A stretch of DNA of 64,000 nucleotides from Euzebya pacifica (GTDB lineage: Bacteria > Actinomycetota > Nitriliruptoria > Euzebyales > Euzebyaceae), in contig NZ_CP031165.1 of the NCBI RefSeq assembly GCF_003344865.1, positions 186,001 to 250,000 on the forward strand, written 5' to 3'. The notes below the pieces were generated by a model that was given only the letters and a program-made list of their open reading frames with translations, ran no database searches and was not told where the DNA came from. Below are positions 21,643 to 38,270 of the stretch, in pieces; position 1 is the first letter of the stretch; each line of letters starts with the position of its first letter. A program made the position numbers and the translations under genes.

Positions 21643-24510
21643 TCAGCCGTTGGCGGTCAGCCGGGCCAGCTGGTCGACGAGGACGGGCTGGGCGACGGGG
21701 CGGGACTCGAGGTGGCCGGGGGAGGGGTGGCCGGCCGCGCGGACCATGCTGGAGACCAACGGCCCGCAGACGCCGCCCTGGCAGCGGCCCATCCCACACC
21801 GGGTCAGGCCCTTGACGGCCCGGGCGTTGGTGGCGCCGTCGGCGATGGCCCGGCCAACGGCCTCGGCCGGCACCTCCTCGCACCGGCAGACCGTCACGTC
21901 GTCGGGCAGGCCCACCGTCCACTCGTCGTCCCACGGGTACAGGCGGGCCAGCGCGTCGCGGAACCCGTCCCAGCGACGCACGGCCCTGCGCGCGCCCGAG
22001 GGCACCGCCGGGCCGACCGTCGACGCCAGGATGGCCGCGCCGGCCAGGTGGCCCTCGGCGACCGCCTTGTCGGCTCCGGCCACCCCGGTCAGCTCGCCCG
22101 CCGCCCACACGCCGGGCACCGACGTCGACTGCTCGTCGTCGACCACCACGGCCGGTCCTGCGGTTCCCGGCCGGTTCACCAGCTCACATCCCAGCTGGAC
22201 CGCCAACGTCACGTCGGGCAGCAGCCCGTCGGAGACCGCCAGCGCGTCCACTGCCATCCGCGCCGTGCGGCCGGACGGGGCGCGCATGGCCACCTGCTCG
22301 ACCGCCTCGCCGTCTGCCGACGCGATGGCCTCGACGACCCGCCAGCCGAACCGTGGCGGCCGGCCACCCGTCAGCCGGGCGAGGTCGGCCAGCTTGCCCG
22401 GGTGCCCGAGGCCCACGGGCAGCCCACCGACCGCGAGCCGTCGCAGCGACTGGGCCTCCAGCGTCAGCAGCGGCGGCGTCCCCGCGGCACGCAGCGCCGA
22501 CGCGACCGCCAGCAACAACGGCCCGGTCCCCGCCAGCACAACCCGTTCCCAGGGGCTGTGACCCTCCTGCTTGACCATCGCCTGGGCGGCCCCCGCGGTC
22601 AGCACTCCCGGCAGCGTCCAGCCAGGGAACGGGCGCACGACCTCCCGGGCGCCGGTGGCCAGCACCAGGTGATCGGCCAGGACCAGCCGCAGCTCGTCGT
22701 CCACCGACACCATGACCTGGAACCGCCTGGTCGCCACCCCGGCGACCTGCTGCACGGCCACCACCTGCGCCCCGCCGAGGTGCTGGACGCCCCGGCTGCC
22801 GTCATCGATCAGCTCGGCCCAGGGCCCCGAGGGAGAGGCGGTACCGGCACGCTGTCGTCCGATCTGGCCACCAGCCGACGGATACCGGTCGACGAGCCCG
22901 ACCGACAGCCCGTTGCCACGCACCGTCGCCGCTGCGGCCAGGCCGCCGGGTCCCGCGCCGAGCACGGCCACATCGACATCCATCACCACCGAACCCGCAC
23001 CCGTCGAACCCGCCGCCGAGTCCGGACCGTCGTCAGCCCCCGACGGCTCGCCAGCGGTCGGTTCGCCAGCGGTCGGTTCCCCAGCGGTCGGCTCGGCAGC
23101 GGTCGGCTCGAGGCACGCCCTGACCGTGGTCCCGTCCGCCCGGGGCAGGACGCAGTCGTGGCAGTGGCCGATGCCGCAGAACAGGCCGCGGGGCCGATCC
23201 TCGAACCGGGTGCGCCGCCAGGACTGCTGCCCGTCGGCGAGCAGCGCCGCGGCGACGGTGCTGCCACGGCCTTCCTTTCCGCCCGTCAGCCCCGACCCAC
23301 ACGAACCGGTCGTCGACGCGCACGACGGGGAGAGCACGAACGGCGTCGGACCCGGCACCCGGTCCACGACGCGTTCGTCCGTGTCGTGCAACCGGCGGGG
23401 GTCGAACGCCTCGTCGGTGCGGCCAGCCAGCACGGACTCGGCCAGCACCTCGGCAGAGCCCAACGCCAGGCCGATACCCGCACCTTCGTGACCCGAGCAG
23501 TGGAACAACCCCTCCACCCGGACGTCCGGACCGATCAGCGGCAGGTGGTCCGGCGTGGCCGGCCGGAAGCCCTGGTAGGTCCGGATGATCCGCACCCTGC
23601 CCAGCGACGGGAACAACGACGCGGCGTTCCGGCTGAGCTCGCCGACCAGGTCCCAGCGCTGCTGGGTGTCCCAGCCGACGGCCTCGCGGGTCGAGCCGAT
23701 CAGCACCGTGCCCGAGACGGTCGACTCGATGACCGGTGCCACCTGGGCCGCCCCGTCGTCGCTCGCCACCGCCTCCACGTAGCGGCCGTCGTAGACCTTG
23801 TGGCGAACCGTCCCCGGCGGGAGGGGTTCGGTCACCAGCAGCAGGCCACGACGGGGGAACACCGGCGCCACGCCACCCAGCCGGGCAGCCAGCTCGCCCG
23901 ACCACGGGCCGGCCGCGAGGACGACGGCGTCGGCGTCGATCCGCGACCCGTCGGCCAGCTCGACACCCACCCCGGCGGTCAGGGACGACAGGCCGACCAC
24001 CGACACGCCGACCCGCTCCTCCACCCCCAGGTCGAGCGCCGCACGACGCAACGCCCGGACGGCGTGGATGGGCATGACCTGTGCGTCCTGCGGGAAGCTG
24101 ATGCCACCCACCAACCCGGGGGACAGCTGGGGCTCCATCTCGCGCAGCGCCGCCCGGCCCAGCACCACCGACTGCACGCCGAGCGGACGCTGCCCCTCGG
24201 CCTGCGCGGCCAGCAACCCGAGCTGGCTGTCGCTGCTGGCGGTGATGATGCCGCCCTTCTCCTCGAACTCGAACGGTTCGGCGGACTCCGCGGCGAAGGC
24301 CTTCCACAGCTCGATGGACCGCAGCGCCAGCCGCGCCTCGGCGGGGATCTCCTTGTCGCTGACGAGGATGTTCCCCTCGCCCCGGCTGGACGTGCCGGCG
24401 CCGGCGACGTGCCGTTCGACGACGGTGACCCGTGCACCTCGGCGCGCCAGCTCGCGGGCGGCCGCCAGGCCGATGATCCCGGCGCCAACGACCACGACGT
24501 GGGTGGTCAC
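21643..24510 (-). CDS. Three-subunit fusion D-hydroxyproline dehydrogenase
   Basis: The 955-residue chain joins three proteins that are normally separate. Residues 1-~385 are a DAO-type flavoprotein (VVVVGAGIIGLAAARELARR). Residues ~395-475 are a small [2Fe-2S] subunit (RGLFCGIGHCHDC, then RAC). Residues ~510-955 are the HcnB-like FAD subunit (VAVLGAGPGGLAAA) with a BFD-type [2Fe-2S] site (VCRCEEV; RCGMGRCQGGVC). The order corresponds to LhpB, LhpF and LhpE, which together oxidise cis-4-hydroxy-D-proline to pyrroline-4-hydroxy-2-carboxylate and pass electrons to the respiratory chain. A PTAGE tandem repeat links the last two parts. GTG 24510 lies 4 bases after the aldehyde dehydrogenase stop. 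Substrate is inferred from the operon; proline or sarcosine is possible. Confidence 0.85.
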   Translation of the reverse strand: MTTHVVVVGAGIIGLAAARELARRGARVTVVERHVAGAGTSSRGEGNILVSDKEIPAEARLALRSIELWKAFAAESAEPFEFEEKGGIITASSDSQLGLLAAQAEGQRPLGVQSVVLGRAALREMEPQLSPGLVGGISFPQDAQVMPIHAVRALRRAALDLGVEERVGVSVVGLSSLTAGVGVELADGSRIDADAVVLAAGPWSGELAARLGGVAPVFPRRGLLLVTEPLPPGTVRHKVYDGRYVEAVASDDGAAQVAPVIESTVSGTVLIGSTREAVGWDTQQRWDLVGELSRNAASLFPSLGRVRIIRTYQGFRPATPDHLPLIGPDVRVEGLFHCSGHEGAGIGLALGSAEVLAESVLAGRTDEAFDPRRLHDTDERVVDRVPGPTPFVLSPSCASTTGSCGSGLTGGKEGRGSTVAAALLADGQQSWRRTRFEDRPRGLFCGIGHCHDCVLPRADGTTVRACLEPTAAEPTAGEPTAGEPTAGEPSGADDGPDSAAGSTGAGSVVMDVDVAVLGAGPGGLAAAATVRGNGLSVGLVDRYPSAGGQIGRQRAGTASPSGPWAELIDDGSRGVQHLGGAQVVAVQQVAGVATRRFQVMVSVDDELRLVLADHLVLATGAREVVRPFPGWTLPGVLTAGAAQAMVKQEGHSPWERVVLAGTGPLLLAVASALRAAGTPPLLTLEAQSLRRLAVGGLPVGLGHPGKLADLARLTGGRPPRFGWRVVEAIASADGEAVEQVAMRAPSGRTARMAVDALAVSDGLLPDVTLAVQLGCELVNRPGTAGPAVVVDDEQSTSVPGVWAAGELTGVAGADKAVAEGHLAGAAILASTVGPAVPSGARRAVRRWDGFRDALARLYPWDDEWTVGLPDDVTVCRCEEVPAEAVGRAIADGATNARAVKGLTRCGMGRCQGGVCGPLVSSMVRAAGHPSPGHLESRPVAQPVLVDQLARLTANG

Positions 24511-24514
24511 CGAG

Positions 24515-26029
24515 CTACTGCGCCCAGGTGGGCAGCGCGTCGTCGGAGAAGGACTGGAAGGCCACCGGTCGACGGAACCGGTCGATGGCGGCCAGCCCGA
24601 CGCTGGTGTGCAGCGGCGCGGTGGTCGCCGGGTACGGGCCGCCGTGGTGCTGGCCGGGGCTGACCCGAACACCCGTCGGGTAGCCGTTGGCGATGACCCG
24701 ACCGACCTTGCGGGCCAGCCGGTCGGCCATGCTGCGCGCCCACGACGACTCCTCGGGGGTGAAGTGCAGCGACGCGGTCAGGGCCGGCTCGAACGCGTCG
24801 ACGACCTCGTCCAGCTCGTCGTCACCGGCGAGCACGACCAGGGTTGCCGGACCGAACACCTCCTCGCGAAGGACCGGCTCGTCGACGAACGTGGCGGCGT
24901 CGGTGGACAGCACGGCCGCGGCACACCCACCGTCGGCATCGGGGGCGCGGACGACCTCGACGCCGTCCACGGCCGCCGCACGGTCCAGCCCCTCGACGAA
25001 GCCGCTGACGATCCCGCCGTGCAGGAGCGGGTGGCCCGGCGTCCGATCGCCCAGCGCGTCGCAGAGACCGGTCAGCACGGCACGGCCGTTGTCGTCGTCG
25101 GGCAGCACGATCAGCCCGGGCTTGGTGCAGAACTGGCCCTCGCCCAGCAGGTAGCTGCCGGAGATCCCCTCGACCATGCCAGCCACGTCGGCCGCCGCAC
25201 CGGCGGAGACGACCAGCGGGTTCAACGACCCCATCTCGGCGTACACGGGGATCGGACGGGGCCGTGTGGCGGCCAGGTCGAACAGGGCACGGCCGCCGCG
25301 CAGGCTGCCGGTGAACGCCACGGCGTCGACGTCGGGGTGCGTGACCAGCGCCTGGCCGACCTCGTGGCCCCCTTCGTGCAGCACCGAGATCATCCCCTCG
25401 GCGAGGCCAGCGGACCGCAGGCCCTCGGCGAGCAGCCGACCGCACAGCTCGGCGGTGGCCGGCTGGGCCGGGTGGGCCTTGGCGACGACCGGGCAGCCGG
25501 CGCCGAGGGCGGCAGCGGTGTCGGTACCGGCGACGCCGAACGCCAGCGGGAAGTTGGAGGCGGCGAACACCGCGACCACGCCGAGCGGCACCGTGGTGCG
25601 GTGCAGCGCCGGGGCGGCCGGGCCATCGCCGGCCGGGTCGACCACGACATCACGACGGCTGCCCGTGCGGGCCTCGGTCGCCATCATCCGCAGCTGCCCG
25701 ACGGTGCGGGCCAGCTCGCCACGCAGCCGAATCTCGCCCAGGGCGGTCTCGGCGTCGGCGGTGGCGACCACGACATCGGCGGCGGCCTCGAACGCATCGG
25801 CGGCCGCCTCCAGCCCCTCGGCGATCGCGGCCATGTCGATCGGGTCGGCCAGCGCCTCGACGGCGGCGGTGACGGCGTCGTCCAGCTGGTCGAACCCGAC
25901 GGTGGTGTAGCTGGGTGTCAGCGCCTGACCCGTGCGTGGGTCGGTGGCGGAGAAGGCGTCGCCGTCACCTGCGGTGGGCTGGCCGGCGATGACGGACTGG
26001 CCGGTCGGCTGGATGGAGGAGGTGGTCAT
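24515..26029 (-). CDS. Alpha-ketoglutarate semialdehyde dehydrogenase
   Basis: The 504-residue protein is an NAD(P)-dependent aldehyde dehydrogenase of the ketoglutarate-semialdehyde type, recognisable from the start TDPRTGQALTPSY and the absence of the usual N-terminal arm. Catalytic Cys is in GEGQFCTKPG (about 300) and the general-base Glu in YAEMGSLNP (about 262). Nucleotide-binding segments are VFAASNFPLAFGVAGTDT and AFTGSLRGGRALF. It would complete hydroxyproline breakdown by oxidising the semialdehyde to 2-oxoglutarate. It lies between the epimerase (45-base gap) and the dehydrogenase fusion (4-base gap) in the minus-strand operon. Confidence 0.88.
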   Translation of the reverse strand: MTTSSIQPTGQSVIAGQPTAGDGDAFSATDPRTGQALTPSYTTVGFDQLDDAVTAAVEALADPIDMAAIAEGLEAAADAFEAAADVVVATADAETALGEIRLRGELARTVGQLRMMATEARTGSRRDVVVDPAGDGPAAPALHRTTVPLGVVAVFAASNFPLAFGVAGTDTAAALGAGCPVVAKAHPAQPATAELCGRLLAEGLRSAGLAEGMISVLHEGGHEVGQALVTHPDVDAVAFTGSLRGGRALFDLAATRPRPIPVYAEMGSLNPLVVSAGAAADVAGMVEGISGSYLLGEGQFCTKPGLIVLPDDDNGRAVLTGLCDALGDRTPGHPLLHGGIVSGFVEGLDRAAAVDGVEVVRAPDADGGCAAAVLSTDAATFVDEPVLREEVFGPATLVVLAGDDELDEVVDAFEPALTASLHFTPEESSWARSMADRLARKVGRVIANGYPTGVRVSPGQHHGGPYPATTAPLHTSVGLAAIDRFRRPVAFQSFSDDALPTWAQ

Positions 26030-26074: not shown

Positions 26075-27079
26075 TCAGCCGAGCAGGAAGCCCTCTGACC
26101 AGGGGTCGGTGGGGTCCAGTACGAGCTGGTTCAGGCCGGTCACCCACGCGCGACCGGTGATGGAGGGCACGACCGCCGGTAGCTCCCCGACCGTAGTGGT
26201 CCCCAGCAGCTGGCCGGTGAACCGCGAGTCGATGATGGAGGTGTGGACGAACGGCGTGTCCAGCGCCAGGTCGCCTCGGGCGTGCATGGATGCCATGCGG
26301 GCCGAGGTGCCGGTGCCGCAGGGCGAGCGGTCGAGGTACCCGGGGTCGATGACGACGGCCCCCCGACCGTCCACCTCGTCGTCACCGGGCGCGGTCACGA
26401 GGACGTGGTGGGTGCCGGCGATGTCGGGCCGTTCCGGATGGACGATGTCGAGCTGGTCGTTGGCGGCCGCCATCACGCGCATGCCGGCGTATAGGACGGT
26501 GCCGGCGTGCTCGGGCCGGAGGGTGACGTCGAGGTCGTCAGCGGAGACGAGCACGTAGAAGTTGCCGCCGTAGGCCACGTCGACGGTGACCTCACCGATG
26601 CCCTCGACCTTCACGACGGCGTCGCGCAGCAGCAGGAAGGAGGGGACGTTGCGAAGGGTGACGGACGTGCAGGCGCCGTCGACGACGCTTGCCTCGGCGA
26701 CGACCAGGCCGGCCGGGGTGTCCAGCCGCACGGTCGTGACCGGTTCGATGACCTGGACCAGCCCGGTCTCCACGGCGGCCGTGACCGCGCCGATGGTCCC
26801 GTGGCCGCACATGGGCAGGCAGCCGGTGACCTCGATGTAGACCACGCCGAGGTCGGCATCCGGACGGGTCGGCGGGCACAGGATCGCCCCCGACATCGCC
26901 TGGTGGCCACGCGGCTCGAACATCAGCAGCTTGCGCCAGCCGTCCAGCGTCGTGGCGACGTGGTGGCTGCGCTCGGCCATCGTCTCGCCGGGCAGCACGC
27001 CGAACCCGGAGGTGACCACCCGGGTCGGCATGCCCTCGGTGTGGGTGTCGACGGCGGTGAAGACCTTCCTCGCTCGCAT
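26075..27079 (-). CDS. lhpA: 4-hydroxyproline 2-epimerase (proline racemase family)
   Basis: The 334-residue protein has both catalytic cysteines of the racemase/epimerase branch: Cys91 in LPMCGHGTIG and Cys254 in RSPCGTGTSA. The dehydratase branch has Thr at the second position, so this one should invert C2, converting trans-4-hydroxy-L-proline to cis-4-hydroxy-D-proline. Sequence alone does not separate proline racemase from hydroxyproline epimerase, but the next three enzymes of the hydroxyproline pathway flank it. ATG 27079 is 11 bases after the deaminase stop, with GAGGT upstream. Confidence 0.87.
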   Translation of the reverse strand: MRARKVFTAVDTHTEGMPTRVVTSGFGVLPGETMAERSHHVATTLDGWRKLLMFEPRGHQAMSGAILCPPTRPDADLGVVYIEVTGCLPMCGHGTIGAVTAAVETGLVQVIEPVTTVRLDTPAGLVVAEASVVDGACTSVTLRNVPSFLLLRDAVVKVEGIGEVTVDVAYGGNFYVLVSADDLDVTLRPEHAGTVLYAGMRVMAAANDQLDIVHPERPDIAGTHHVLVTAPGDDEVDGRGAVVIDPGYLDRSPCGTGTSARMASMHARGDLALDTPFVHTSIIDSRFTGQLLGTTTVGELPAVVPSITGRAWVTGLNQLVLDPTDPWSEGFLLG

Positions 27080-27090
27080 CGCGGTCGACC

Positions 27091-27978
27091 TCAGCCCTTG
27101 CCGGCGGCGAGGGCGCGACGGGCGTCGGCGCGGACCTGCTGCTCGACATCGGCCGGCAGGGGCAGGCGGGGCAGCCTGGACGGGCCGCCGTACCGGCCGG
27201 CCTCCTCCTGACCCAGCTTGATGGCCTGCACGAAGCGTGGTTCGGCGTCCCAGCGGAGGATGGGGAGCATCTCGTCGTACAGCGCGAGGGCGTCGGCGAT
27301 CTTGCCGGACTCCGACAGCTCCAGCAGGCGGACCGACTGCTCGGGGAAGGCGTTGACGAACCCGCTGATCCAGCCGCGGGTGCCGACCAGCGCCGACTCG
27401 ACCAGGACGTCGTCGCAGCCGCAGATGACCTGCAGCTGGGGGACCAGGTCGGCGAGGTGGCGGACCCGGCGGACGTCCATGGAGAACTCCTTGAGCCCGA
27501 CGACCTGCGGAACGGCCTCCACGGTCTTGGCCATCAGCGCCGGCACCAGGTCCACCCGGGTCGACCACGGGTTGTTGTAGGCGATGATCGGCACACCGAC
27601 CTCGGCCACGTGGGCGTAGTGGGCGACGACCTCGTCGTCGGTGGGGGCGTGCGACGTCGGGGGCAGCAGCATGACGGCAGGGCAGCCGTGGGCGGCGGCC
27701 TGCTCGGTCCAGCGCCGGGCCTCACCGGCGGACTTGCCGGCCACGCCGGGGATGACCCGGTCGGCACCGACGGCAGCGACGGCGGCGTCGACGACCGCAG
27801 CCCGTTCCTCGTCGGTCAGCGCCTCGTACTCGCCGAGCGAGCCGTTGACGACGACGCCCTCGCAACCGGACTCCACCAGCCACGCGCAGTGCTCGGCGAA
27901 GCGGTCGAGGTCCAGGGTGAGGTCGTCACGGAAGGGAAGGGTGGTGGCGGGCCAGACCCCGCGGAGCACGTCAGTCAT
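27091..27978 (-). CDS. lhpC: Delta1-pyrroline-4-hydroxy-2-carboxylate deaminase (DapA family)
   Basis: The 295-residue protein is a class I aldolase-type barrel of the dihydrodipicolinate synthase family. It has GSLGEYEALT, Tyr134 in IIAYNNPWSTRVD and the Schiff-base Lys163 in VVGLKEFSMD. In hydroxyproline operons this family member deaminates pyrroline-4-hydroxy-2-carboxylate to alpha-ketoglutarate semialdehyde. It is the first gene of the minus-strand operon, with its start 35 bases from the shared operator. Other DapA-family lyases are possible on sequence alone; the neighbours decide. Confidence 0.86.
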   Translation of the reverse strand: MTDVLRGVWPATTLPFRDDLTLDLDRFAEHCAWLVESGCEGVVVNGSLGEYEALTDEERAAVVDAAVAAVGADRVIPGVAGKSAGEARRWTEQAAAHGCPAVMLLPPTSHAPTDDEVVAHYAHVAEVGVPIIAYNNPWSTRVDLVPALMAKTVEAVPQVVGLKEFSMDVRRVRHLADLVPQLQVICGCDDVLVESALVGTRGWISGFVNAFPEQSVRLLELSESGKIADALALYDEMLPILRWDAEPRFVQAIKLGQEEAGRYGGPSRLPRLPLPADVEQQVRADARRALAAGKG

Positions 27979-28013
27979 GGTGTGGACCGTACGGCACGGG
28001 CCGACACGGGTAT

Positions 28014-28029
28014 ATCGACGATCGTCGAA
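28014..28029. promoter_or_regulatory. Operator in divergent hydroxyproline promoter
   Basis: ATCGAC-GATC-GTCGAA contains the perfect 14-bp palindrome TCGACGATCGTCGA. It sits between the divergent deaminase (start 27978) and PucR-type regulator (start 28078). The same TTCGAC-N4-GTCGAA layout recurs before hyuA. A second palindrome, CGATGATCATCG, lies at 28048-28059. Confidence 0.65.
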
Positions 28030-28077
28030 CGTTTGCGCTGAGCTGGCCGATGATCATCGAGGCCGACTTGTGGCACT

Positions 28078-29280
28078 GTGGACGACATGGACGTCACGCT
28101 GCTGCAGGAGGTCGTGAACGCGCTCAGTCGGGACGTCGAGCGGCCGGTGGTGCTCGAGGACGAGGACCAGCAGCCGATCGTGCACAGCCCTCATTACGGG
28201 CAGACCGACCGGATGCGTCGGGACACCATCATGCACAAGTCCACCAGCAAGGAGACGGTGGAGTACTTCAGGCGTTATGACCTGGCCTCGCGGACCGAGC
28301 CGTTCGTCGTCCCGGGCAACGAACGTGGCGTCCTGCCCCGGCTGTGTGTGCCCCTGCGCTACGACGAGAAGCTGCTGGGCTACGTATGGGTCCTCCTCCC
28401 GGATGAGGAGATGTCCGACGACCACCGACGAGCGGTCGAACGCGTCAGGGAACCGCTCGCCGAAACGCTGTGGTTGGACCGCCTCTCCCGCCTTCGCGAG
28501 GGACGAATCGTCGAGGACCTCCTCAATGACGACCACGACCGGCGGCTGCGTGGCCTCGTCGCCGTCGAAGCGAAGCACGCCTTCGATGCGCCGGCGAGGA
28601 CCATGGTCCTCGTGGCCGTCGGCCCCGGCTGGGCGGTTCGTGCGGCCAGGCGGGCCTTCGTGATGCAGCGATGGGTAGCCGACCCGGCTTCACAGCTGCG
28701 GCTGGTCGACGTCGACGAGGGCGTGGCTGTCGTTGCCCACATCGCCTCGGGCAGGGATGCCGCGGATGGGGTGCTGGCGGGGGGACTCGATCTCGATGCG
28801 CTGGAACGGTCCATGGGACAGATCAACCGAGTCACCGACGGTTTGCCAGTCATGCTGGGCGTCGGTCCGTCCGTCGCCTCCCCTGGCGCGCTGCCCCGCT
28901 CCCACCGAAGGGCCCGGCAGGCGGCAACTGTCGCCCTGCGGATCGGTCCTTCCAAGGGCTTCGTTTCGACGTGGGAGGGGCTGGGCGTTTACCGGCTGCT
29001 GGTCCAGCTGCCACGCGACGCGCTTGCCGACGGCGTCGACCCGCGGTTGGTCGGCCTCATCCAGGACGTACCGGAGGTGGCCGCCACATTGGAGGTCTAC
29101 CTGGACGGCGGTGGAGCGGTAGCGGCCGCAGCCGACACCCTGCACATCCATCGCACCACCCTCTACTACCGACTGGAGAAGGTGACCGAGGCGGGTTTCG
29201 ACCTGCACTCGGGAACCGATCGCATGACAATCCAGGTCGGGTTCGCCGCGCTGCGCCTGCTTGGACGCTGGCCGGCTTGA
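28078..29280 (+). CDS. PucR/CdaR-type transcriptional regulator
   Basis: The 400-residue protein has an N-terminal sensory part (1-~140, GAF-like), a middle CdaR/GGDEF-like region without a cyclase motif and a C-terminal HTH_30 domain (VAAAADTLHIHRTTLYYRLE, followed by a conserved LRLL end). PucR-type proteins are usually ligand-responsive activators of nitrogen- or carbon-compound catabolism. Its position between the hydroxyproline operon and the hyu/ABC/peptidase operon, with matching palindromes at both promoters, makes it the probable regulator of both. The start is GTG 28078 or ATG 28087; neither has a clear ribosome-binding site. Confidence 0.85.
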   Translation: MDDMDVTLLQEVVNALSRDVERPVVLEDEDQQPIVHSPHYGQTDRMRRDTIMHKSTSKETVEYFRRYDLASRTEPFVVPGNERGVLPRLCVPLRYDEKLLGYVWVLLPDEEMSDDHRRAVERVREPLAETLWLDRLSRLREGRIVEDLLNDDHDRRLRGLVAVEAKHAFDAPARTMVLVAVGPGWAVRAARRAFVMQRWVADPASQLRLVDVDEGVAVVAHIASGRDAADGVLAGGLDLDALERSMGQINRVTDGLPVMLGVGPSVASPGALPRSHRRARQAATVALRIGPSKGFVSTWEGLGVYRLLVQLPRDALADGVDPRLVGLIQDVPEVAATLEVYLDGGGAVAAAADTLHIHRTTLYYRLEKVTEAGFDLHSGTDRMTIQVGFAALRLLGRWPA

Positions 29281-29340
29281 ACCGACAGTCGCAGGGTCCG
29301 TAGGCCGAATCCTCCAAGAGGAATCGAACGTCTTCCACGC

Positions 29341-29389
29341 TTCGACAATAGTCGAAACGAGGGCCCGGAAATGTTCGACCGATGTCGCT
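29341..29389. promoter_or_regulatory. Two operator copies upstream of hyuA
   Basis: TTCGAC-AATA-GTCGAA (29341-29356) is a perfect 6-bp inverted repeat with 4-nt spacer. TTCGAC-CGAT-GTCGCT (29374-29389) is an imperfect copy. Their centres are 33 bases apart, about three helical turns. A lone half-site GTCGAA is at 29467. The rest of this 202-base gap between the regulator and hyuA shows no gene. Confidence 0.65.
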
Positions 29390-29482
29390 GGAGCACCGCT
29401 CCTCGCCGCGAATAGCGTCCGTCATCCAACCCACAGAGCCCCGCGGCCATCACGGTCCGGGCAACTGTCGAAGGGATGACAG

Positions 29483-31555
29483 ATGGCAGACAGGACACGG
29501 CTTGCGATCGACGTCGGCGGCACCTTCACCGACGTCGTCCGCCTGACACCGGACACCGGCGAGCTCCGTTTCGAGAAGGTGCCCACCACCCCCGACGCAC
29601 CGACCGATGGGGTCATGGCTGCCTTCGAACGGGCCGATGTGGCACCCAGCGACGTCGTGATGTTCAACCACGGCACCACGCTTGGACTGAACGCCCTGCT
29701 CACCCGTACTGGGGCACGGATCGCGGTCGTCGGCACGAAGGGGTTCCGCGACGTGTACTTGCTCGGCCGCACTGACCGCCGAACCAACTACGACATCACC
29801 CATCGCAAGCCCCAGCCACTGCTCGAGCGGTACGACACCTTCGAGGTGGCGGAACGGAGCACCTTCGACGGCGGAGTCCACCAGCCGTTGGACACCGACG
29901 ATGCTCGACACGTCGCCGAAACCCTCGCCGAGCGAGGGTACGACGCCGTCGCGGTGGCCTTCCTCCATGCCTACGCCAACCCGGCCCACGAACTGGCGAT
30001 GCGCGAGATCCTCAACGAGGTCGCCCCGGGTCTGGAGGTGACGCTCTCCCACGAACTCTCACGTGAGTATCGGGAGTACGAGCGCACCAGCACGGCCGTC
30101 CTCGACGCCTACATCAAGCCCATCGTCAGGCGCTACCTCCAGCAGCTCGACGCGGAGCTGACCGACCGGGGGTTCACCGGTCGCTTCCTGATGACCCGGT
30201 CCGGTGGGGGCGCGATGACAGCCACCGCAGCCCGTGACCAACCGGTCAATCTGATCCTCTCCGGTCCTGCCGGAGGGGTCATTGGTGCAGCCGCGCTGGC
30301 ACCCAGTCTCGGCCAGCCGAACCTCATCACCATCGACATGGGTGGCACGTCCCTCGACGCGTCGCTGGTCATCGACGGGGAGCCGGTCAGCCACCAGGGT
30401 GCCGAGTTCGAGCACATGCCGATCAACACGCCATCGCTGTACATCCACACCATCGGCGCCGGTGGTGGCTCGATCGGCTGGCTCGACGAGGCCGGTGCCC
30501 TGCAGGTCGGTCCGCAGAGCGCCGGAGCGATGCCCGGACCCGCCTCGTACGGTCGTGGTGGAACCGAGCCCACGTTCACCGACGCAGCGCTGGTCCTCGG
30601 CTACTTGGGCGGCGACACCCCGTTGGGTGGCACGCTCCAGCTCGACCGTGACCTGGCCGAGAAGTCCCTCGAACCTGTCGCCGCGGCGCTGTCGTTGACG
30701 GTGCAGGCCCTCGCGAAGGGCATGGTTCAGATCTCCGCGACGAAGATCATGGGAGCCGTTCGCGCCATCACCGTCGAGCTGGGTCGTGATCCCAAGGACT
30801 TCGCCCTCCTGGCGTTCGGCGGTGGCGGCGGTCTGGTGGCCGTGGACGTCGCCAGGGAACTGCAGATTCCCACGGTCGTCGTCCCACCGGGGCAGGGCGC
30901 GTTCTCTGCGCTGGGCATGCTCGTCGCCGACGTCCAACACGACTTCGCCCGCACCGCCGTCACACCCTTGGAGGGTGTCGAGCTCCGCGTCCTCGAGGAA
31001 TCGTTCGTCGAGATGGAGACCGAGGCTGCCGAGGTGCTCCGCGAGGAGGGCTTCACGCCGGACCGCACCCAGCTGCTGCGCAGCGTTGACGTGCGGTACG
31101 CAGGTCAAGAGCACAGCGTCACCGTCTCCTACCCCTCCACTGGACTGGATCCGGTCAGCGCGATCGAGCAGCAGTTCTCCGAACTCCACGAGCGGCAGTA
31201 CGGCCACACGATGCAGGACCCGGTCGAGCTGACGACACTCAGGGTTCGGGCGGTCGGGATCGTGGACAAGCCCGAGCTGCCGCAGATGGCCAGCCGCACC
31301 GACGACGGACCCCCGTCCCTGGGGACCCGGCCCGTCTACGTCGACATCGACAACCCCGCCGTCCCCTACGGCTTGTACGAGCGCGAATCGCTGCTTGCCG
31401 GTGACACCGTCGAAGGGCCGGCGGTGGTCACCGAACACACCGCCACGACCGTCCTGCACATCGGCGACAGCCTGCGCGTGGGTGACCACGGCGAGCTGGT
31501 CATCGACGTGTCGCCGACCCCCTCCGCCAGGACCGCCAAGGAGCACGTCGCATGA
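29483..31555 (+). CDS. hyuA: Hydantoinase/oxoprolinase family protein, ATP-binding subunit
   Basis: The 690-residue protein is a HyuA-type subunit: N-terminal IDVGGTFTDVVRL (from residue 9) is the phosphate-binding loop of the acetate/sugar kinase/actin fold, followed by FNHGTTLGLNALL and the hydantoinase core ending GGGGGLVAVDVARELQIP. With HyuB these enzymes hydrolyse cyclic amides such as N-methylhydantoin, 5-oxoproline or caprolactam at the cost of ATP. AAGGGATGACAG precedes the ATG. The start of hyuB overlaps by ATGA. It heads the operon with two upstream palindromes. Confidence 0.87.
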   Translation: MADRTRLAIDVGGTFTDVVRLTPDTGELRFEKVPTTPDAPTDGVMAAFERADVAPSDVVMFNHGTTLGLNALLTRTGARIAVVGTKGFRDVYLLGRTDRRTNYDITHRKPQPLLERYDTFEVAERSTFDGGVHQPLDTDDARHVAETLAERGYDAVAVAFLHAYANPAHELAMREILNEVAPGLEVTLSHELSREYREYERTSTAVLDAYIKPIVRRYLQQLDAELTDRGFTGRFLMTRSGGGAMTATAARDQPVNLILSGPAGGVIGAAALAPSLGQPNLITIDMGGTSLDASLVIDGEPVSHQGAEFEHMPINTPSLYIHTIGAGGGSIGWLDEAGALQVGPQSAGAMPGPASYGRGGTEPTFTDAALVLGYLGGDTPLGGTLQLDRDLAEKSLEPVAAALSLTVQALAKGMVQISATKIMGAVRAITVELGRDPKDFALLAFGGGGGLVAVDVARELQIPTVVVPPGQGAFSALGMLVADVQHDFARTAVTPLEGVELRVLEESFVEMETEAAEVLREEGFTPDRTQLLRSVDVRYAGQEHSVTVSYPSTGLDPVSAIEQQFSELHERQYGHTMQDPVELTTLRVRAVGIVDKPELPQMASRTDDGPPSLGTRPVYVDIDNPAVPYGLYERESLLAGDTVEGPAVVTEHTATTVLHIGDSLRVGDHGELVIDVSPTPSARTAKEHVA

Positions 31556-33264
31556 CCGACGCAATCACCACCGAGATCATCCGCCACGGCCTACTGGCCA
31601 ACGCTCAGGAGATGGCACGCAACCTGTGCCGAACCTCTTACAACACCGTGGTCTACGAGATCCACGACTACGGGATCGGAATCCACGATGCAAACGGGGA
31701 CGTGGTGGCTGATGCCCCGGGCATCGCCATCTTCACCCGAGGCAACGACCACGGCATCAAGAAGGCAGTGGAGTTCCTGGGCCGGGAGAACCTCCACCCC
31801 GGCGACGTCGTGATGCTGAACTACCCCTACTGGTCGTCGGCCCACACGCTGGACCCGTTGGTCTTCGCACCGATCCACGACGACGGCGAGATCATCGGGT
31901 TCGCGTCGTGCCGGATCCACGTCCTGGACCTCAAGCAGAAGGACGCCGGGTACGTCCTTGACTCCACCGACATGTACCAGGAAGGGATCTTCTTCCCGGC
32001 CAGCAAGCTGTACAACCGCGGTGTCCAGAACGACGACATCTTCAACCTCATCCGGTTCAACAGTCGGATGCCGGAACGAACGATCGGGGACATCCAAGCG
32101 CAGGTGTCGGCCTGTGTGACGGGCGTCCGTCGGACCCAGGACCTCGTGGTCAAGTACGGTCGGGAGACGATCGCCGAGGCCATGGTTGCCATCAACGACC
32201 ACGGCGAACGGCTGGCGCGGCTCGCACTGGCCAAGCTGCCCAAGGGAACGTGGCGGGCGCACGACTTCGTCGACACCGACGGCATCGACCTGGACCGCAT
32301 GGTCAAGCTGGATGTCGAGGTCACGATCACCGACGACGAGATGATCCTCGACTGGACCGGCAGCGACACCGACGTCAAGGGCCCGATCAACCTGCCCATC
32401 GGTGGCACGGAAGCGTTCTGCAGCCTGATCTTCAAGTCGTTGACGACCCCTGACACATCGGTCGTCGCCGGCAACTTCCGGCCCATGCGGATCATCACCA
32501 CACCGGGTTCCGTCGTGCACGCTGTGCCACCCATGCCCACCTTCACACTGTGGACCGGGCTGCTGGGGGGCGAGGTCATCCTCAAGGCCCTCGCGCAGGG
32601 CATGCCCGACCTCGTGCCGGCCTGCTCCGGCGGGGACGTCTGCTCGATGATGGGCCTCGGGGTCAATCCCCGGAACGGCGAGGCCTGGCTGGAGGCGACC
32701 AACGAAGCCGTTGGCTTCGGCGGGCACGCTGGTGGCGACGGTGAGGACGGGATCATGCACCTCACCGAACCGGGCTGTCGGAACAACCCGGTGGAGGTGC
32801 TGGAGACCAAGTCTCCGATGTTCATCGAGTCCTACGGATACCGGCCGGACAGCGGTGGCGCCGGCGAACATCGCGGGGGCGTCGGCGTGGGGCGGGCCTA
32901 CCGCTTCCTGGCCCCGTCGACCGGCATCGCCATCGTCTACAAGACCCTGACCAAGCCGTGGTCGATCGGGGACGGCCAGCCCGGTGACAACAACCACATC
33001 GTCCTGAACCCCGGAACTGATCGCGAGGTCGTCAAGGGCGGCAGCTACAACGCCCTCGACACCGGTGACGTGCTGGTCAACAACACCGGCGGAGGCGGCG
33101 GCTGGGGCGACCCGTTGCGACGCGATCCCGCGGCGGTGGCCGCCGACGTCCGCAATGGCTTCGTGTCCGCCGAGGCAGCCCGACGCGACTACGGCGTCGT
33201 CGTTGACCCACGGACCCACGAGATCGACGACGAGGCCACACGACGACTGCGGTCCGCCGCGTGA
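31552..33264 (+). CDS. hyuB: Hydantoinase/oxoprolinase family protein, hydrolase subunit
   Basis: The 570-residue protein matches HyuB throughout: EIIRHGLLANAQEMARNLCR at the start, NDHGIKKAVEFLG, the metal-site region GDVVMLNYPYWSSAHTLD, and the Gly-rich end GGGGGWGDPLRRDP. It partners with HyuA for ATP-dependent opening of a lactam or imide ring. The ring could be 5-oxoproline at a peptide N-terminus or a cyclic dipeptide, given the peptidases downstream; this is inference. ATGA overlap with hyuA implies coupled translation. Confidence 0.87.
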   Translation: MTDAITTEIIRHGLLANAQEMARNLCRTSYNTVVYEIHDYGIGIHDANGDVVADAPGIAIFTRGNDHGIKKAVEFLGRENLHPGDVVMLNYPYWSSAHTLDPLVFAPIHDDGEIIGFASCRIHVLDLKQKDAGYVLDSTDMYQEGIFFPASKLYNRGVQNDDIFNLIRFNSRMPERTIGDIQAQVSACVTGVRRTQDLVVKYGRETIAEAMVAINDHGERLARLALAKLPKGTWRAHDFVDTDGIDLDRMVKLDVEVTITDDEMILDWTGSDTDVKGPINLPIGGTEAFCSLIFKSLTTPDTSVVAGNFRPMRIITTPGSVVHAVPPMPTFTLWTGLLGGEVILKALAQGMPDLVPACSGGDVCSMMGLGVNPRNGEAWLEATNEAVGFGGHAGGDGEDGIMHLTEPGCRNNPVEVLETKSPMFIESYGYRPDSGGAGEHRGGVGVGRAYRFLAPSTGIAIVYKTLTKPWSIGDGQPGDNNHIVLNPGTDREVVKGGSYNALDTGDVLVNNTGGGGGWGDPLRRDPAAVAADVRNGFVSAEAARRDYGVVVDPRTHEIDDEATRRLRSAA

Positions 33265-33305
33265 ACCACCAAGCACCCAATAGGTCCACGAGAGAAGGAA
33301 CAGAC

Positions 33306-34442
33306 ATGCGAACACCCACCCACCCTGCACGACTCCTGCTGGCCTCCTTCCTGCTGATGGCCGTGATCGCCGCCGCCTGCTCGACGGATCCGTTGGAGAA
33401 CGACACCGGCGCCGAGGACGTCGGGACGGCGGACACCGTCGCCGGCGACGCCACCGACGCAGCCGAAGAGACCGGTGATGACACCGCCGCCGACACCGAC
33501 GCGGACAGCGCCTCGGACGACGGCATCGCGATCGCGTTCTTCGCCTCATCCAGCCAGAACGGCTACAACCAGGCCACCTACGAGGGCATACAGGAGGCCG
33601 CCGAGGCCGCCGGCGGGGTGACCACGGAGATCTTCGACGGCGAGTTCAGCGCCGACGTCCAGTTCAACCAGATCGAAGACGTCATCGCGTCGGGACGATT
33701 CGACGGCTTCGTGGTGGTGCCCAACGACACCGTCGGCATCGCCTCGGCGGTTGAGGAGGCCATCGCCAGCGACATCGGCGTCGCCACGGCGCTGTTCCCC
33801 ATCGGCCCTGACCTCGGGACGATCGAGCCCCAGGTCGAGGGCATCATCACCGCTGCTGCCCCTGTCGAGCCCCAGTCGGCGGAACTGGCAGAGGGCGTCG
33901 TGGATTACTGCGCAGACATCGATCCGTGCCGCGTCATCATCCTCATTGGGCAGCTGCAGTTCCCCTTCGACAACGTCCGGTACGAGGCCATGACGAGCGT
34001 CCTCGCCGAGCACGACAACATCGAGCTCGTCGCCACCGGCGAGGGCAACTACGACCGTGACCAGTCCCTGACGGTCATGCAGGACCTGATCCAGGCCAAC
34101 CCTGAGTTCGAGGTCTTGCTGTCCAACGCCGACCAGCACGTCGCCGGCGCCCTCATCGCTCTCGACGAAGCCGGGTTCGACATTCCAAGCATGTACATCG
34201 CCGGGGGTGGCGCCACCGAGACCGCCATCGAGGGCATCCGCGCCGGACGCTGGGACGCCACCGCCACCAGCTTCCCCGCCAGCGAAGGGCGCCTTGCCGC
34301 GGAGAACCTGATCGCCTCCCTCCGGGGCGAAGAGTTCGACCAGGTCATCAACATGAACGAGGCCGGCGCGATCCCCTCGGCGGTCATCACGGCAGAGACG
34401 CTGGAGGAACACCCCGATTTCGAGGCCGAATGGGACGGCTGA
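33306..34442 (+). CDS. Ribose-type ABC transporter substrate-binding lipoprotein
   Basis: The 378-residue protein has a lipobox (LLMAVIAAAC), a very acidic Thr/Asp/Ala linker (~25-72) and a periplasmic-binding fold of the RbsB type (IAIAFFASSSQNGYNQATYEG, FDGFVVVPNDTVGIASAVEE, EVLLSNADQHVAGALIALDE). Such proteins capture sugars, nucleosides or related small polar compounds. The neighbourhood suggests a peptide-derived or cyclic substrate, which would be unusual for the type. GAAGGAA precedes the ATG. The ATPase and permease follow directly. Confidence 0.87.
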   Translation: MRTPTHPARLLLASFLLMAVIAAACSTDPLENDTGAEDVGTADTVAGDATDAAEETGDDTAADTDADSASDDGIAIAFFASSSQNGYNQATYEGIQEAAEAAGGVTTEIFDGEFSADVQFNQIEDVIASGRFDGFVVVPNDTVGIASAVEEAIASDIGVATALFPIGPDLGTIEPQVEGIITAAAPVEPQSAELAEGVVDYCADIDPCRVIILIGQLQFPFDNVRYEAMTSVLAEHDNIELVATGEGNYDRDQSLTVMQDLIQANPEFEVLLSNADQHVAGALIALDEAGFDIPSMYIAGGGATETAIEGIRAGRWDATATSFPASEGRLAAENLIASLRGEEFDQVINMNEAGAIPSAVITAETLEEHPDFEAEWDG

Positions 34443-34444
34443 TC

Positions 34445-36049
34445 GTGGCCCCCTCCACCGTGCACCCCATGTCCAACTCTTCCGCCTCGCCTTCGGGCGA
34501 GGCGGGCCGTGGGGCACGGATCGGCCTCCGTTCCGTCAGCAAGCGATTCGGTGCGACGCAGGCCCTTGACGACATCGACGTGGACATCGACGCGGGAACG
34601 ATCCATGCCCTGGTCGGCGAGAACGGCGCGGGCAAGTCCACCCTCGGCAAGGTCGTCGGCGGCATCCACCACGCTGATTCCGGCCAGCTGCTGCTCGATG
34701 GCCAGCCGGTCGGACGATGGGACGCCCCGTCCGCACTCGACCACCGCATCGCCACCATCCAGCAGGAGCTCTCCCTGGTGCCGGCGATGTCGGTGGAGCG
34801 CAACGTATTCCTCGGCATGGAACCGTCCCGAGCGGGCGCCCTCGTCGGCGGAATGCGGGAACGCTACGAGGCGCTCGATGCCGCCGTCGGCTTCGGCCTC
34901 GACCCGAGAACCCCAGTCCGTGACCTGCGGCTGGCCGACCAGCAGAAGGTCGAGATACTCCGTGCTATTGCGAGGGACGCACGGCTCGTCGTCATGGATG
35001 AGCCGACATCCTCGCTGACCCAGGACGAGGCCGACCGGCTGCACGAGATCATGGCCCGGCTCAGGGCCGAGGGTCGGACGATCATCTACGTGAGTCACTT
35101 CCTCGACGAAGTGCTTCGCTGGGCCGATCGCGTCACCATCATGCGCGACGGACGCGTCGTTCGGACTGCGGACACCGCAGAGGAGACCAAGGACTCCTTG
35201 GTGGAGGGAATGCTCGGCCAGCCGGTCGAGCTGAGCTTCCCGCCGCGGATCTCCCCCGCCCCTGAGGCCCCGGTCGTGCTCGAGGTCGAAGGGCTGTCGG
35301 GCGGGATCGTCGAGGACGTTGACCTGACCATACGGAGCGGCGAGGTCGTCGGTCTCGCCGGCCTCGTGGGGAGCGGTCGGACCGAGATCGCCCGTCTCCT
35401 CTTCGGCGCCGATCCGGCTACCAGCGGCGTGGTCCGGGTCGACGGGACGGCTGTGGACCTGCACGGGCCGTGGTCGGCCATCGACGCAGGACTGGTCATG
35501 CTGCCCGAGGACCGACGCGGGCAGGGCCTGGTGATGACCCAGAACGTGCGCGAGAACATCACCCTGCCGCGGCTCCGACACTTTGCCCGCCGCGGACGGG
35601 TCCGGCGCAGCGACGAACGCAAGGCGACCAGGTCGGCGATCGAGCGCCTCGACATCACCCCGGCCCGCGTCAACGGTGAGCTGCAGCACTACTCCGGCGG
35701 CAACCAGCAGAAGGCACTGTTCGCCAAGTGGACGCTGCGTCCCCCGCGGGTGCTGATCCTCGACGAGCCCACGCGCGGCGTCGACGTCGGCGCCAAGCGC
35801 CGGATCTACGAGGCCTTGCTCGAGGAGGCCAGTAACGGGGCGGCCGTGCTGCTGATCTCCTCGGAGCTGGAGGAGGTCGTGGAGCTGTCCACGCGGGTCC
35901 ACCTCGTCGTGGACGGACGCATCACCGGTGAGGTGGATCCCACGACCACCGACGCCGACGAGATCCTGAAGCAGCTCTTCGGCACCACGCCCGTGGCCCC
36001 CGACCCGCACACCGGCCCGACCCTTCCCACGAAAGCGAGCTCGGCATGA
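34445..36049 (+). CDS. Ribose-type ABC transporter ATPase (two domains)
   Basis: The 534-residue protein has two ABC domains. The first has GENGAGKST, LADQQKVEILRAI and VVMDEPTSSLT. The second has the usual degenerate Walker A of this family (GLVGSGRTEIARLLFG), the signature YSGGNQQKALFAKW and ILDEPTRGVDVG. This is the RbsA/XylG layout. Start is uncertain: GTG 34445 lies just after the upstream stop; ATG 34430 would overlap it and ATG 34469 is also possible. The 3' end overlaps the permease by ATGA. Confidence 0.87.
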   Translation: MAPSTVHPMSNSSASPSGEAGRGARIGLRSVSKRFGATQALDDIDVDIDAGTIHALVGENGAGKSTLGKVVGGIHHADSGQLLLDGQPVGRWDAPSALDHRIATIQQELSLVPAMSVERNVFLGMEPSRAGALVGGMRERYEALDAAVGFGLDPRTPVRDLRLADQQKVEILRAIARDARLVVMDEPTSSLTQDEADRLHEIMARLRAEGRTIIYVSHFLDEVLRWADRVTIMRDGRVVRTADTAEETKDSLVEGMLGQPVELSFPPRISPAPEAPVVLEVEGLSGGIVEDVDLTIRSGEVVGLAGLVGSGRTEIARLLFGADPATSGVVRVDGTAVDLHGPWSAIDAGLVMLPEDRRGQGLVMTQNVRENITLPRLRHFARRGRVRRSDERKATRSAIERLDITPARVNGELQHYSGGNQQKALFAKWTLRPPRVLILDEPTRGVDVGAKRRIYEALLEEASNGAAVLLISSELEEVVELSTRVHLVVDGRITGEVDPTTTDADEILKQLFGTTPVAPDPHTGPTLPTKASSA

Positions 36050-37023
36050 CCACCAGTGACCCCACCCTCGCGATTGGCTCCGGCGGACTGTCGTTGGAGC
36101 GGATCGGCAGATGGCTACGGCAGTACGGCGTGCTGGTGTTGCTCGTCGCCCTGTTCGTTGCCCTGTCGATCGGCAGCGATGCGTTCCTGTCCAGTCGCAA
36201 CCTGCTGAACATCCTCAACCAGAACACTCCGTTGGCGATCATCGCCATGGCCGGGACGCTCGTCATCATCGCGGGCGGCTTCGACCTCTCCACGGGGGCC
36301 ATGTTCGGTGTGGCGTCAGTCACCGCCGCATGGGTCGCCGTCAACATCGACCCTGTCCTCGGCTTGGCAATCGCCCCGCTCGTCGGACTCGCGCTCGGCA
36401 CCGTCAACGGTTTGGTCATCACAGGGCTGAAGGTGCACTCCTTCCTCGCGACCATCGCGTCGTCGCTGGTGTACGGCGGACTCGCGATCCTCATCACCGG
36501 TGGGTTCCTCATCTCGGTGCCCGACGAGGCCTTCGCCGCGCTCGGCCGTGGCCGAGTCGGTCCGATCAACGTCGCGGTGATCGTGCTCGTCATTGCCATG
36601 GCGGTGTTCACCTACATCCTCAACGGTACGACGGTCGGCCGGTACGTCTACGCCGTCGGTGGCAACGAGGAGGCCGCCAGTCTCTCGGGTATCAGGGTCG
36701 GTCGAATCAAGGTCATGACGTTCGCCCTCTCGGGGTTGGCGTCCGGCGTCGCCGGTGCGATTGCGGTGTCCCGTATCGCCAGCGGACAGCCGCAGGCCGG
36801 GGCGGGACTCGAGCTGGAAGCGGTCGCGGCCGTCATCCTCGGCGGCACCAGCATCTACGGCGGCGAAGGGGCCGTGTGGCGGTCCGTGGCCGGCGTCATG
36901 CTCCTCGCGCTCATCCAGAACGGCTTCAACATCCTCAACGCCAACCCCTTCTACAAGGACCTGACCACCGGCTTGGTCATCGTGCTTGCGGTGGCGCTGT
37001 CCGCCGGTCGGAAGGGGAAGTGA
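36046..37023 (+). CDS. Ribose-type ABC transporter permease
   Basis: The 325-residue protein has 8-10 hydrophobic segments and family landmarks GGFDLSTGAMFGVASVTAAW, NGLVITGLKVHSFLATI and VILGGTSIYGGEGAVWRSV. It forms the membrane channel of an RbsABC-type importer with the two preceding genes. The C-terminus ends in a short basic tail. An RbsC-type dimer is expected, because only one permease gene is present. Confidence 0.88.
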   Translation: MTTSDPTLAIGSGGLSLERIGRWLRQYGVLVLLVALFVALSIGSDAFLSSRNLLNILNQNTPLAIIAMAGTLVIIAGGFDLSTGAMFGVASVTAAWVAVNIDPVLGLAIAPLVGLALGTVNGLVITGLKVHSFLATIASSLVYGGLAILITGGFLISVPDEAFAALGRGRVGPINVAVIVLVIAMAVFTYILNGTTVGRYVYAVGGNEEAASLSGIRVGRIKVMTFALSGLASGVAGAIAVSRIASGQPQAGAGLELEAVAAVILGGTSIYGGEGAVWRSVAGVMLLALIQNGFNILNANPFYKDLTTGLVIVLAVALSAGRKGK

Positions 37024-37025
37024 AC

Positions 37026-38270
37026 GTGGCGGTCGCCGGGACGCTGTCGATCATCGGCGCACGGGTCCTCGACGTCGACCGGGGGGAGTTGCATCAGCAG
37101 GACGTGCACGTCACCAATGGATGCGTGTCTGCACTCGGCGACCACGACGGGCCCCCTTCGGACGTGGTCATCGAGGGCCACGGTCACGTCATCGTCCCCG
37201 GGTTCATCGACGCCCACTTCCATGCCTACGGCATCGGCCTGGACATGCTGGTGATGGAAGCCACGCCCATGAGCTATGTCACTGCCAAAGCCGCCGAACG
37301 GTTGGGAGGAGCACTCCGTCGCGGCTTCACGACCGTCCGGGACGTGGCCGGCGGCGACATCGGCCTGCGTCGGGCGCTGGACGAAGGTCTGATCGTGGGT
37401 CCTCGGTACCTGTTCACCGGCCCAGCGCTGTCCCAGACGGGCGGCCACGGTGACCCCCGCCTCGGAGACCTGGCAATCGATACGTGCTGTCACCGACTTA
37501 CCGAGGTCGTCGACGGAGTGGACAACTTGCGGGTCGCGGTGCGAGAGCGCTTCCGTACCGGCGCCCATGCCATCAAGGTCATGACCTCCGGTGGGGTCGT
37601 GTCGTTGACCGACCCACTGCGGATCCCGCAGTACTCCGCTGAGGAGGTCCGGGTCGTCTGTGACGAGGCGACCCGTCGGGGCAGCTACGTGGCTGCGCAT
37701 GCCTACTCGCCGGAGGCGATCGCACACTCTGTGGTCAACGGCGTCCGTTCGATCGAGCACGGCAACCTGCTCGACGTCGCGACTGCACAGCTCATGGTTC
37801 GAAACGACGCATTCCTCGTCCCGACACTGGCTGCCTACGACGCCATGGACCGGCGCGGCGACAGCCTCGGACTGACAGCCGTCCAGAGGGCCAAGAACCT
37901 CGAGGTCCTCGACCACGGCAAGCAGGCCATCGAGATCGCCGCAGCTGAAGGGGTACGCATCGGGTTCGGTAGCGATCTCATGGGAGATCTCGAGGACGAC
38001 CAACTCGTCGGCCTTCGGCTGCAAGTAGAAGTCCAGGGACCGATCGCGGCCATCCAGTCGGCCACAGCGGTGAACGCGGCGCTGATCGGGCGTCATGACC
38101 TCGGGAGGGTCGCGGTCGGTGCCGTTGCCGACCTGCTCGTCCTTGACGCCGACCCGACCCAGGACCCCTCGGTGCTGTGGGACGAGTCCCGTCGCACCGT
38201 CATCAGCGGTGGTCGTCCGCTGGGGACCTCTCGACCGGCACTCACCCCCTTCAGGGGGAGGACATCATGA
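37026..38270 (+). CDS. Prolidase-like metal-dependent amidohydrolase
   Basis: The 414-residue protein is an amidohydrolase with HxH in DAHFHAYG (His64, His66), a probable carboxylated Lys in HAIKVMTSGGVVS (about 184), the two later His in AAHAYSPEA and SIEHGNLLD, and Asp in GFGSDLMGD. The SGGVVS segment and overall pattern match the group that includes Xaa-Pro dipeptidases and aryl-dipeptide hydrolases. This would release proline or hydroxyproline from dipeptides. GTG 37026 follows the permease stop by two bases, with GGAAGGGGAAG upstream. The 3' end overlaps the next gene by ATGA. Confidence 0.82.
   Translation: MAVAGTLSIIGARVLDVDRGELHQQDVHVTNGCVSALGDHDGPPSDVVIEGHGHVIVPGFIDAHFHAYGIGLDMLVMEATPMSYVTAKAAERLGGALRRGFTTVRDVAGGDIGLRRALDEGLIVGPRYLFTGPALSQTGGHGDPRLGDLAIDTCCHRLTEVVDGVDNLRVAVRERFRTGAHAIKVMTSGGVVSLTDPLRIPQYSAEEVRVVCDEATRRGSYVAAHAYSPEAIAHSVVNGVRSIEHGNLLDVATAQLMVRNDAFLVPTLAAYDAMDRRGDSLGLTAVQRAKNLEVLDHGKQAIEIAAAEGVRIGFGSDLMGDLEDDQLVGLRLQVEVQGPIAAIQSATAVNAALIGRHDLGRVAVGAVADLLVLDADPTQDPSVLWDESRRTVISGGRPLGTSRPALTPFRGRTS

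Follow-up and report, generated by a model that had tools for sequence, protein, structure and literature searches.

Results and Discussion

A PucR-type regulator gene between two operons

The window, by which we mean the whole 64,000-nucleotide stretch of the Euzebya pacifica genome that was analyzed, carries two operons on either side of a PucR-type regulator gene (Table 1). The left operon begins with a dapA-like gene divergent from pucR and brings together, as adjacent genes, four families of the trans-4-hydroxy-L-proline pathway (epimerase-, D-Hyp-dehydrogenase-, DHDPS-, and aldehyde-dehydrogenase-family). Judging the enzyme substrates from family and neighborhood, we predict that this operon breaks down trans-4-hydroxyproline: the DHDPS-family gene probably encodes the Hyp-pathway deaminase, the fused DAO oxidoreductase is probably the D-hydroxyproline dehydrogenase, and the proline-racemase-family product is probably 4-hydroxyproline epimerase. 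For the latter, the best model was 4-hydroxyproline epimerase at 368.6 bits, below its cut-off of 376, and the translation shows a cysteine in both MCGHG and SPCGTG. Two catalytic cysteines mark a 4-Hyp epimerase, as opposed to a 3-Hyp dehydratase.

The right operon probably serves the uptake and hydrolysis of Pro/Hyp-containing peptides or lactams, as far as gene families can tell. Its ABC importer is of the sugar type, with binding protein, ATPase, and permease, and the amidohydrolase has Xaa-Pro dipeptidase as its best named match, below that model's cut-off. Among named families, HyuA and HyuB best match the caprolactamase subunits (507 and 219 bits, where the cut-off is 1000), a hint of an ATP-dependent lactam hydrolase within a hydroxyproline regulon.

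Table 1. Genes, predicted −10 elements, and putative operators in the window (positions within the window).
Feature	Coordinates	Strand	Remarks
Fused DAO / 2Fe-2S / pyridine-nucleotide oxidoreductase gene	21643..24516	-	left operon
Aldehyde dehydrogenase gene	24515..26029	-	left operon
Proline-racemase-family gene	26075..27130	-	true start probably near 27079
DHDPS-family gene (dapA-like)	27091..27978	-	first gene of left operon
Predicted −10, dapA-like gene	27986..27991	-	TACGGT; 7 nt before ATG
Putative proximal operator, dapA-like promoter	28014..28029	-	ATCGACGATCGTCGAA; 22 bp upstream of −10
Putative distal operator, dapA-like promoter	28046..28061	-	palindrome GCCGATGATCATCGAG; 32 bp from proximal
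PucR-type regulator gene	28078..29280	+	GTG at 28078 or ATG at 28090; HTH_30 E 2.1e-15
Putative distal operator, hyuA promoter	29341..29356	+	TTCGACAATAGTCGAA, exact TTCGAC-N4-GTCGAA; the full site of the first-pass annotation
Putative proximal operator, hyuA promoter	29374..29389	+	TTCGACCGATGTCGCT, two mismatches; 23 bp upstream of −10
Predicted −10, hyuA	29413..29418	+	TAGCGT
hyuA and hyuB	29483..33264	+	first genes of right operon
Rest of right operon	33261..40005	+	ABC importer, amidohydrolase, small monooxygenase-like gene, M17 aminopeptidase

We call the regulator PucR-type because of its C-terminal HTH_30 domain only (56.7 bits, cut-off 27). A domain profile search found no match in it to the N-terminal PucR domain, PF07905 (accession as given in PMC7652997). 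The central region scored 23.1 bits for GGDEF_2, just below the cut-off of 24.5, and gave a profile match to the C-terminal part of Rv2242 (E 4.6e-14). The N-terminal part is GAF-like, with a match to SpoVT (E 0.0033) and structural similarity to the GAF domains of CodY (TMt 0.63-0.66). In the predicted model (mean pLDDT 90.7, 18 sequences in the alignment), two alpha/beta domains, one N-terminal and the other at about residues 170-300, are separated by a long helix, and the C-terminal part is helical. Among solved structures, Rv2242/MabR and 3onq come closest to the C-terminal part, and the CodY GAF domains to the N-terminal part; whole-chain TM-scores were low (about 0.3), so these are matches of the domains alone.

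Palindromic sites in the two intergenic regions

A first-pass annotation had reported the palindrome TTCGAC-N4-GTCGAA at three places and a half-site in the two intergenic regions around pucR. On re-reading, the three palindromes lie where it had placed them, including the single arm mismatch at 28014, the perfect 14-bp palindrome TCGACGATCGTCGA within that site, and the 33 bp between the centers of the 29341 and 29374 sites. Its account of the motif was too loose about the center: the unit conserved between the window and seven related genomes with the PucR-type gene is approximately YCGAYGATNRTCGR, which specifies part of the N4. Its set of sites was also incomplete, having overlooked the distal dapA-like palindrome at 28046. 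The half-site, a GTCGAA word at 29467-29472, proved to be noise and was rejected as an operator: the best matrix score there was 2.3, versus 16-20 at the three strong sites, and such words are common in the window (GTCGAA 26 times, TTCGAC 42 times).

We ranked all window positions with a held-out matrix built from seven proximal sites in six genomes, with the window and its near twin G002 excluded. The sites at 28014 (20.4), 29341 (19.5), and 28046 (16.0) came first, second, and third, followed by a match of 15.3 at 32814, inside hyuB. The 29374 site ranked 110th; it is a poor sequence match at a constant position, and the site, its spacer, and its −10 are identical in G002. Based on this ranking and the spacing, the full site at 29341 is the distal hyuA operator and the variant at 29374 the proximal one.

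Rarity of the motif depends strongly on the stringency of the search. With up to two mismatches, the palindrome occurs at five places in the window against 3.23 expected, and 20 of 100 shuffles reach five, so this loose pattern is at background and by itself proves nothing; genome-wide it has 182 places per strand versus 66 for a backward-read control, and we rejected it as evidence. The exact pattern TTCGAC-N4-GTCGAA occurs at one place in the entire 6.37-Mb genome. Allowing one mismatch yields six places (one in the backward-read control), two of which fall in the intergenic regions flanking pucR. Three of the other four lie inside coding genes (Schlafen/AlbA type, GDP-mannose dehydratase, and WhiA), and the last lies where a GH92 reading frame has its 5' end and may be directly upstream of the start codon. 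The genome-wide search that the first-pass annotation had proposed thus shows a rare site, rather than one equally frequent in unrelated intergenic regions.

Two simpler motif searches were discarded. The core-only pattern YCGACGATNGTCGR with one mismatch was useless genome-wide, being too frequent in coding DNA, and CGACGATNGTCG-like words with one mismatch gave 119 and 104 strand matches in the window's genome. Palindrome score alone left true sites in several relatives undetected.

Conserved promoter architecture in related genomes

We searched 101 related genomes, taking at least 40% identity to the PucR-type protein as the definition of an orthologue. Eight genomes, including the window's own, have one: identity is 85% in G002, 56% in G022, and 41-44% in the rest. 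The dapA-like gene adjoins pucR in seven of the eight; in the eighth, G053, the contig stops beyond the promoter. By comparison, only the window and G002, a near relative, have hyuA and hyuB after pucR. The G022 contig stops directly after pucR, and the stretches read for G001, G051, and G003 gave no hyuA or hyuB match.

Eleven promoters in the eight orthologue genomes share one layout, in which a site of 16 bp is separated from TANNNT by 22 bp (23 bp at hyuA). Among the dapA-like promoters, the −10 reads TACGGT, with an unchanged spacing, in five (the window, G002, G051, G052, and G053), TAGCAT in G022, and TACAGT in G001. Both hyuA promoters, those of the window and of G002, have TAGCGT; the amidohydrolase gene of G003 has TAGGGT and the divergent gene of G001 TAGGCT. 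The short distance between the window's dapA-like −10 and the ATG suggests a leaderless transcript.

Each promoter was scored with a matrix built from the proximal sites of other lineages only; the training sites had been chosen by eye, and this leave-lineage-out scheme and the training without the window and G002 are the safeguards. The proximal site ranked first in 9 of the 11 promoters. Its score was matched by none of 300 shuffles in seven promoters, by 4 of 300 in G052, and by 6 of 300 in G002; the 28014 site ranked first of 133, with 0 of 300 shuffles as high. The hyuA proximal sites are weak, with their scores reached by 103 of 300 shuffles in the window and 93 of 300 in G002, and they rank second behind the distal site.

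The strongest non-proximal match lies exactly 32 bp upstream in eight of the 11 promoters and 33 bp upstream in one, although the matrix was trained on proximal sites only. Pairs of inverted repeats 32/33 bp apart, directly upstream of the promoter, are thereby present in 9 of the 11 promoters examined, both window promoters included. The distal match is weak in G022 (3.9), and with the same matrices it is absent at the G003 amidohydrolase and G001 divergent promoters. No site was found in the G003 dapA-like promoter. When dapA-like promoters from four lineages were compared in pairs, mean identity was 0.78 for the proximal site, 0.58 for the distal site, 0.27 for the linker, 0.46 for the spacer, and 0.69 for the −10.

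A separate element was seen in the leaders of two of these promoters, downstream of the PucR-type site and −10. It is 35 bp long, identical and single-copy in G001 (G001:C19:4502-4536) and G003 (G003:C1:557333-557367), and absent, at up to three mismatches, from the window's genome and G002. It precedes the amidohydrolase gene in G003 and, in G001, a gene that we take to be msrA-like. Its arms may form a hairpin with an invariant loop. A search of Rfam yielded nothing relevant, this element included.

Specificity and link to the regulator gene

We combined the site and the −10 into composite patterns. The strict composite requires YCGAYNATNRTCG plus a −10 at an unchanged distance; it is present in 12 of the 101 related genomes. 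Among the 66 of the same class it occurs in five, all within the eight that carry the orthologue (hypergeometric P = 6 × 10−6), at six places that are all in the pucR-flanking intergenic region, with none elsewhere; it is absent from the 58 same-class genomes without an orthologue. Seven genomes of other classes have it at 12 places. The composites were defined after the sites had been viewed, so the positives are partly circular and the absence elsewhere is the informative part. A looser composite matches the locus in all eight orthologue genomes (12 places) and has 15 places off the locus, 13 of them in long reading frames.

In the window's genome, the looser composite has six places. Two are the two promoters and one results from reading back across the hyuA pair of operators; the other three sit in open reading frames (914374, polysaccharide-export type; 2842373, BNR-repeat type; 2694113, unclear) and were rejected as extra regulon members. 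The tandem-site pattern occurs at two places in this genome, both these promoters, and its backward control likewise at two. In relatives it has 0-8 places per genome, mostly unrelated, and is therefore not specific there.

The proposal of the first-pass annotation, that the palindrome marks two co-regulated operons, is strengthened by these results: the site is rare in the genome, and in the other seven orthologue genomes its position with respect to the −10 is unchanged. The comparison with related genomes that it had called for points the same way, in that every same-class genome with the strict composite has the orthologue.

More distant loci gave a less uniform picture. Weaker related sites lie at −83 of dapA-like genes in G047 (TGCATCGATCGTCGGA, score 11.1) and G048 (TCGGTCGATCGTCGCA, score 11.2), the latter, by eye, 23 bp before TAGGGT. 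The G048 regulator homologue is only 37% identical, and no close homologue was found in G047. These sites are possibly a half-conserved version of the operator. At sister PucR-Hyp loci with 33-38% identity (G037, G044, G048, G061, G064, and G252), no common motif could be fixed from reading the promoters, and in the L216 promoter no site was seen by eye. Upstream of the 37%-identical PucR homologue of G037, TCCGTCGGACA and an inverted copy stand 9 bp apart; this pair may be the operator of a sister group that uses another motif.

Proposed mechanism and alternatives

The genomes directly show the sites, how they are spaced and conserved, and that they co-occur with the regulator gene. Based on this evidence, we consider it probable, with good confidence, that the palindromes are paired operators from which the PucR-type protein activates both operons; we infer the binding, its cooperativity, activation in preference to repression, the inducer, and the substrates. 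The regulator, encoded between the operons, would use the palindromes as its operators, two per operon promoter. If the dapA-like transcript starts at the ATG, the proximal operator would be centered at about −43 and so take the place of a −35 element. With 32/33 bp between them, the two operators are three helical turns apart and so lie on the same side of the helix. Two dimers of the regulator, or one tetramer, may occupy both operators cooperatively and recruit RNA polymerase to two otherwise poor promoters. The lower dimer at the −35 position and a same-face pair three turns apart make this an activator layout. The inducer would be hydroxyproline or a breakdown intermediate, probably sensed by the GAF-like N-terminal domain, and the outcome would be joint induction of hydroxyproline catabolism on the left and the uptake-and-hydrolysis operon on the right.

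The operators could be real and the regulator a repressor, or both repressor and activator, with induction by release. The dapA-like operators sit between the divergent dapA-like gene and pucR, so that binding there could shut off pucR, and precedents exist: PucR of B. subtilis is reported as activator and repressor alike in PMC7652997, and HypR, which regulates hydroxyproline genes in S. coelicolor, acts as a repressor according to PMC6608401. However, the sites occupy the −35 place, upstream of the −10, at a constant 22-23 bp in 11 promoters, and the remaining PucR-type regulators cited in PMC7652997 are activators. We regard repression, alone or combined with activation, as unlikely.

That the palindromes belong to some other factor in control of both operons, such as a LexA-like protein or a global regulator of nitrogen or stress responses, strikes us as very unlikely. 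The binding partner is assigned from sequence, and the composition of the sites, with arms rich in T/C/G/A around an N4 center, recalls the actinobacterial SOS box bound by LexA, TCGAAC-N4-GTTCGA. Yet, by reading, the arms of the conserved site differ from that consensus. The site of a global regulator should recur, whereas only one exact and six near matches exist genome-wide, and at most one of the four near matches away from pucR is possibly outside a coding region. The restriction of the strict composite to the locus in five same-class genomes, and its lack in those without an orthologue, also argues against an unrelated factor. It is more improbable still that the palindromes are chance or structural features (a hairpin or terminator) devoid of any regulatory role. 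The background level of the two-mismatch pattern and the abundance of CGACGATNGTCG-like words in high-GC coding DNA would fit such a reading, but the held-out ranks of one to three in the window, the 22/23-bp and 32/33-bp spacings kept in several lineages, and the better conservation of sites than linkers do not. As for a terminator, no T-run follows 29341-29356, and the copy upstream of the dapA-like gene is located where no gene ends.

Activation of both operons from paired operators would matter in several ways. It provides a testable operator model (motif, two spacings, and −10) for one regulator of the PucR-type family, few of whose binding sites have been mapped. Shared operators tie the uncharacterized HyuAB/ABC/peptidase operon to the hydroxyproline pathway, which narrows the search for its substrate. 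Hydroxyproline is a building block of collagen. We offer a bolder extension as speculation, and think it rather doubtful: a PucR-type regulator with a GAF-like sensor may be the activator that responds to hydroxyproline or Hyp intermediates in this actinobacterial class. Via the operator pair it would couple breakdown to the ATP-dependent, lactamase-like HyuAB, to an ABC importer of the sugar type, and to Xaa-Pro peptidases, forming an undescribed route for scavenging collagen-derived Pro/Hyp peptides or cyclic dipeptides.

Comparison with known systems

A search of the open PMC literature, in which subscription papers are mostly not covered, returned none that describes hydroxyproline genes under a PucR-type regulator. 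The system is of a known kind, and its hydroxyproline target and operator appear to be new in the open literature searched. The hydroxyproline operon under HypR in the actinobacterium Streptomyces coelicolor is of the same type, but HypR is a GntR repressor with the motif CTNTGC(A/C)ATGTCAC, unlike the site here (PMC6608401). Hydroxyproline use would thus be tied to a PucR-type regulator in the window; in S. coelicolor it is tied to an unrelated GntR repressor.

MabR/Rv2242 of Mycobacterium tuberculosis belongs to the PucR family and is the nearest solved structure for the C-terminal part. It forms dimers and tetramers (PMC11617747). It differs in having a globin-like N-terminal domain, GAF-like here, and in regulating mycolic-acid genes. 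PutR and AdeR of Bacillus subtilis, cited in PMC7652997, are PucR-type activators of amino-acid catabolism (proline and alanine, respectively) whose palindromic sites measure 17 and 24 bp; they act on other substrates in another phylum, and the comparison drawn here is of function and site length.

The closest precedent, by analogy, is GabR of Corynebacterium glutamicum, the activator of gabTDP, as described in PMC7652997. It too is PucR-type and encoded beside its targets, with two inverted repeats upstream. GabR binds between −87 and −23, just upstream of the target's −35, and strong binding requires both sites. It differs in its 21-bp motif, in lacking the GGDEF-like domain that the regulator here may have, and in its substrate, GABA. 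GabR also has one target promoter in that account, whereas the regulator described here would serve two operons, each with its own 32/33-bp pair.
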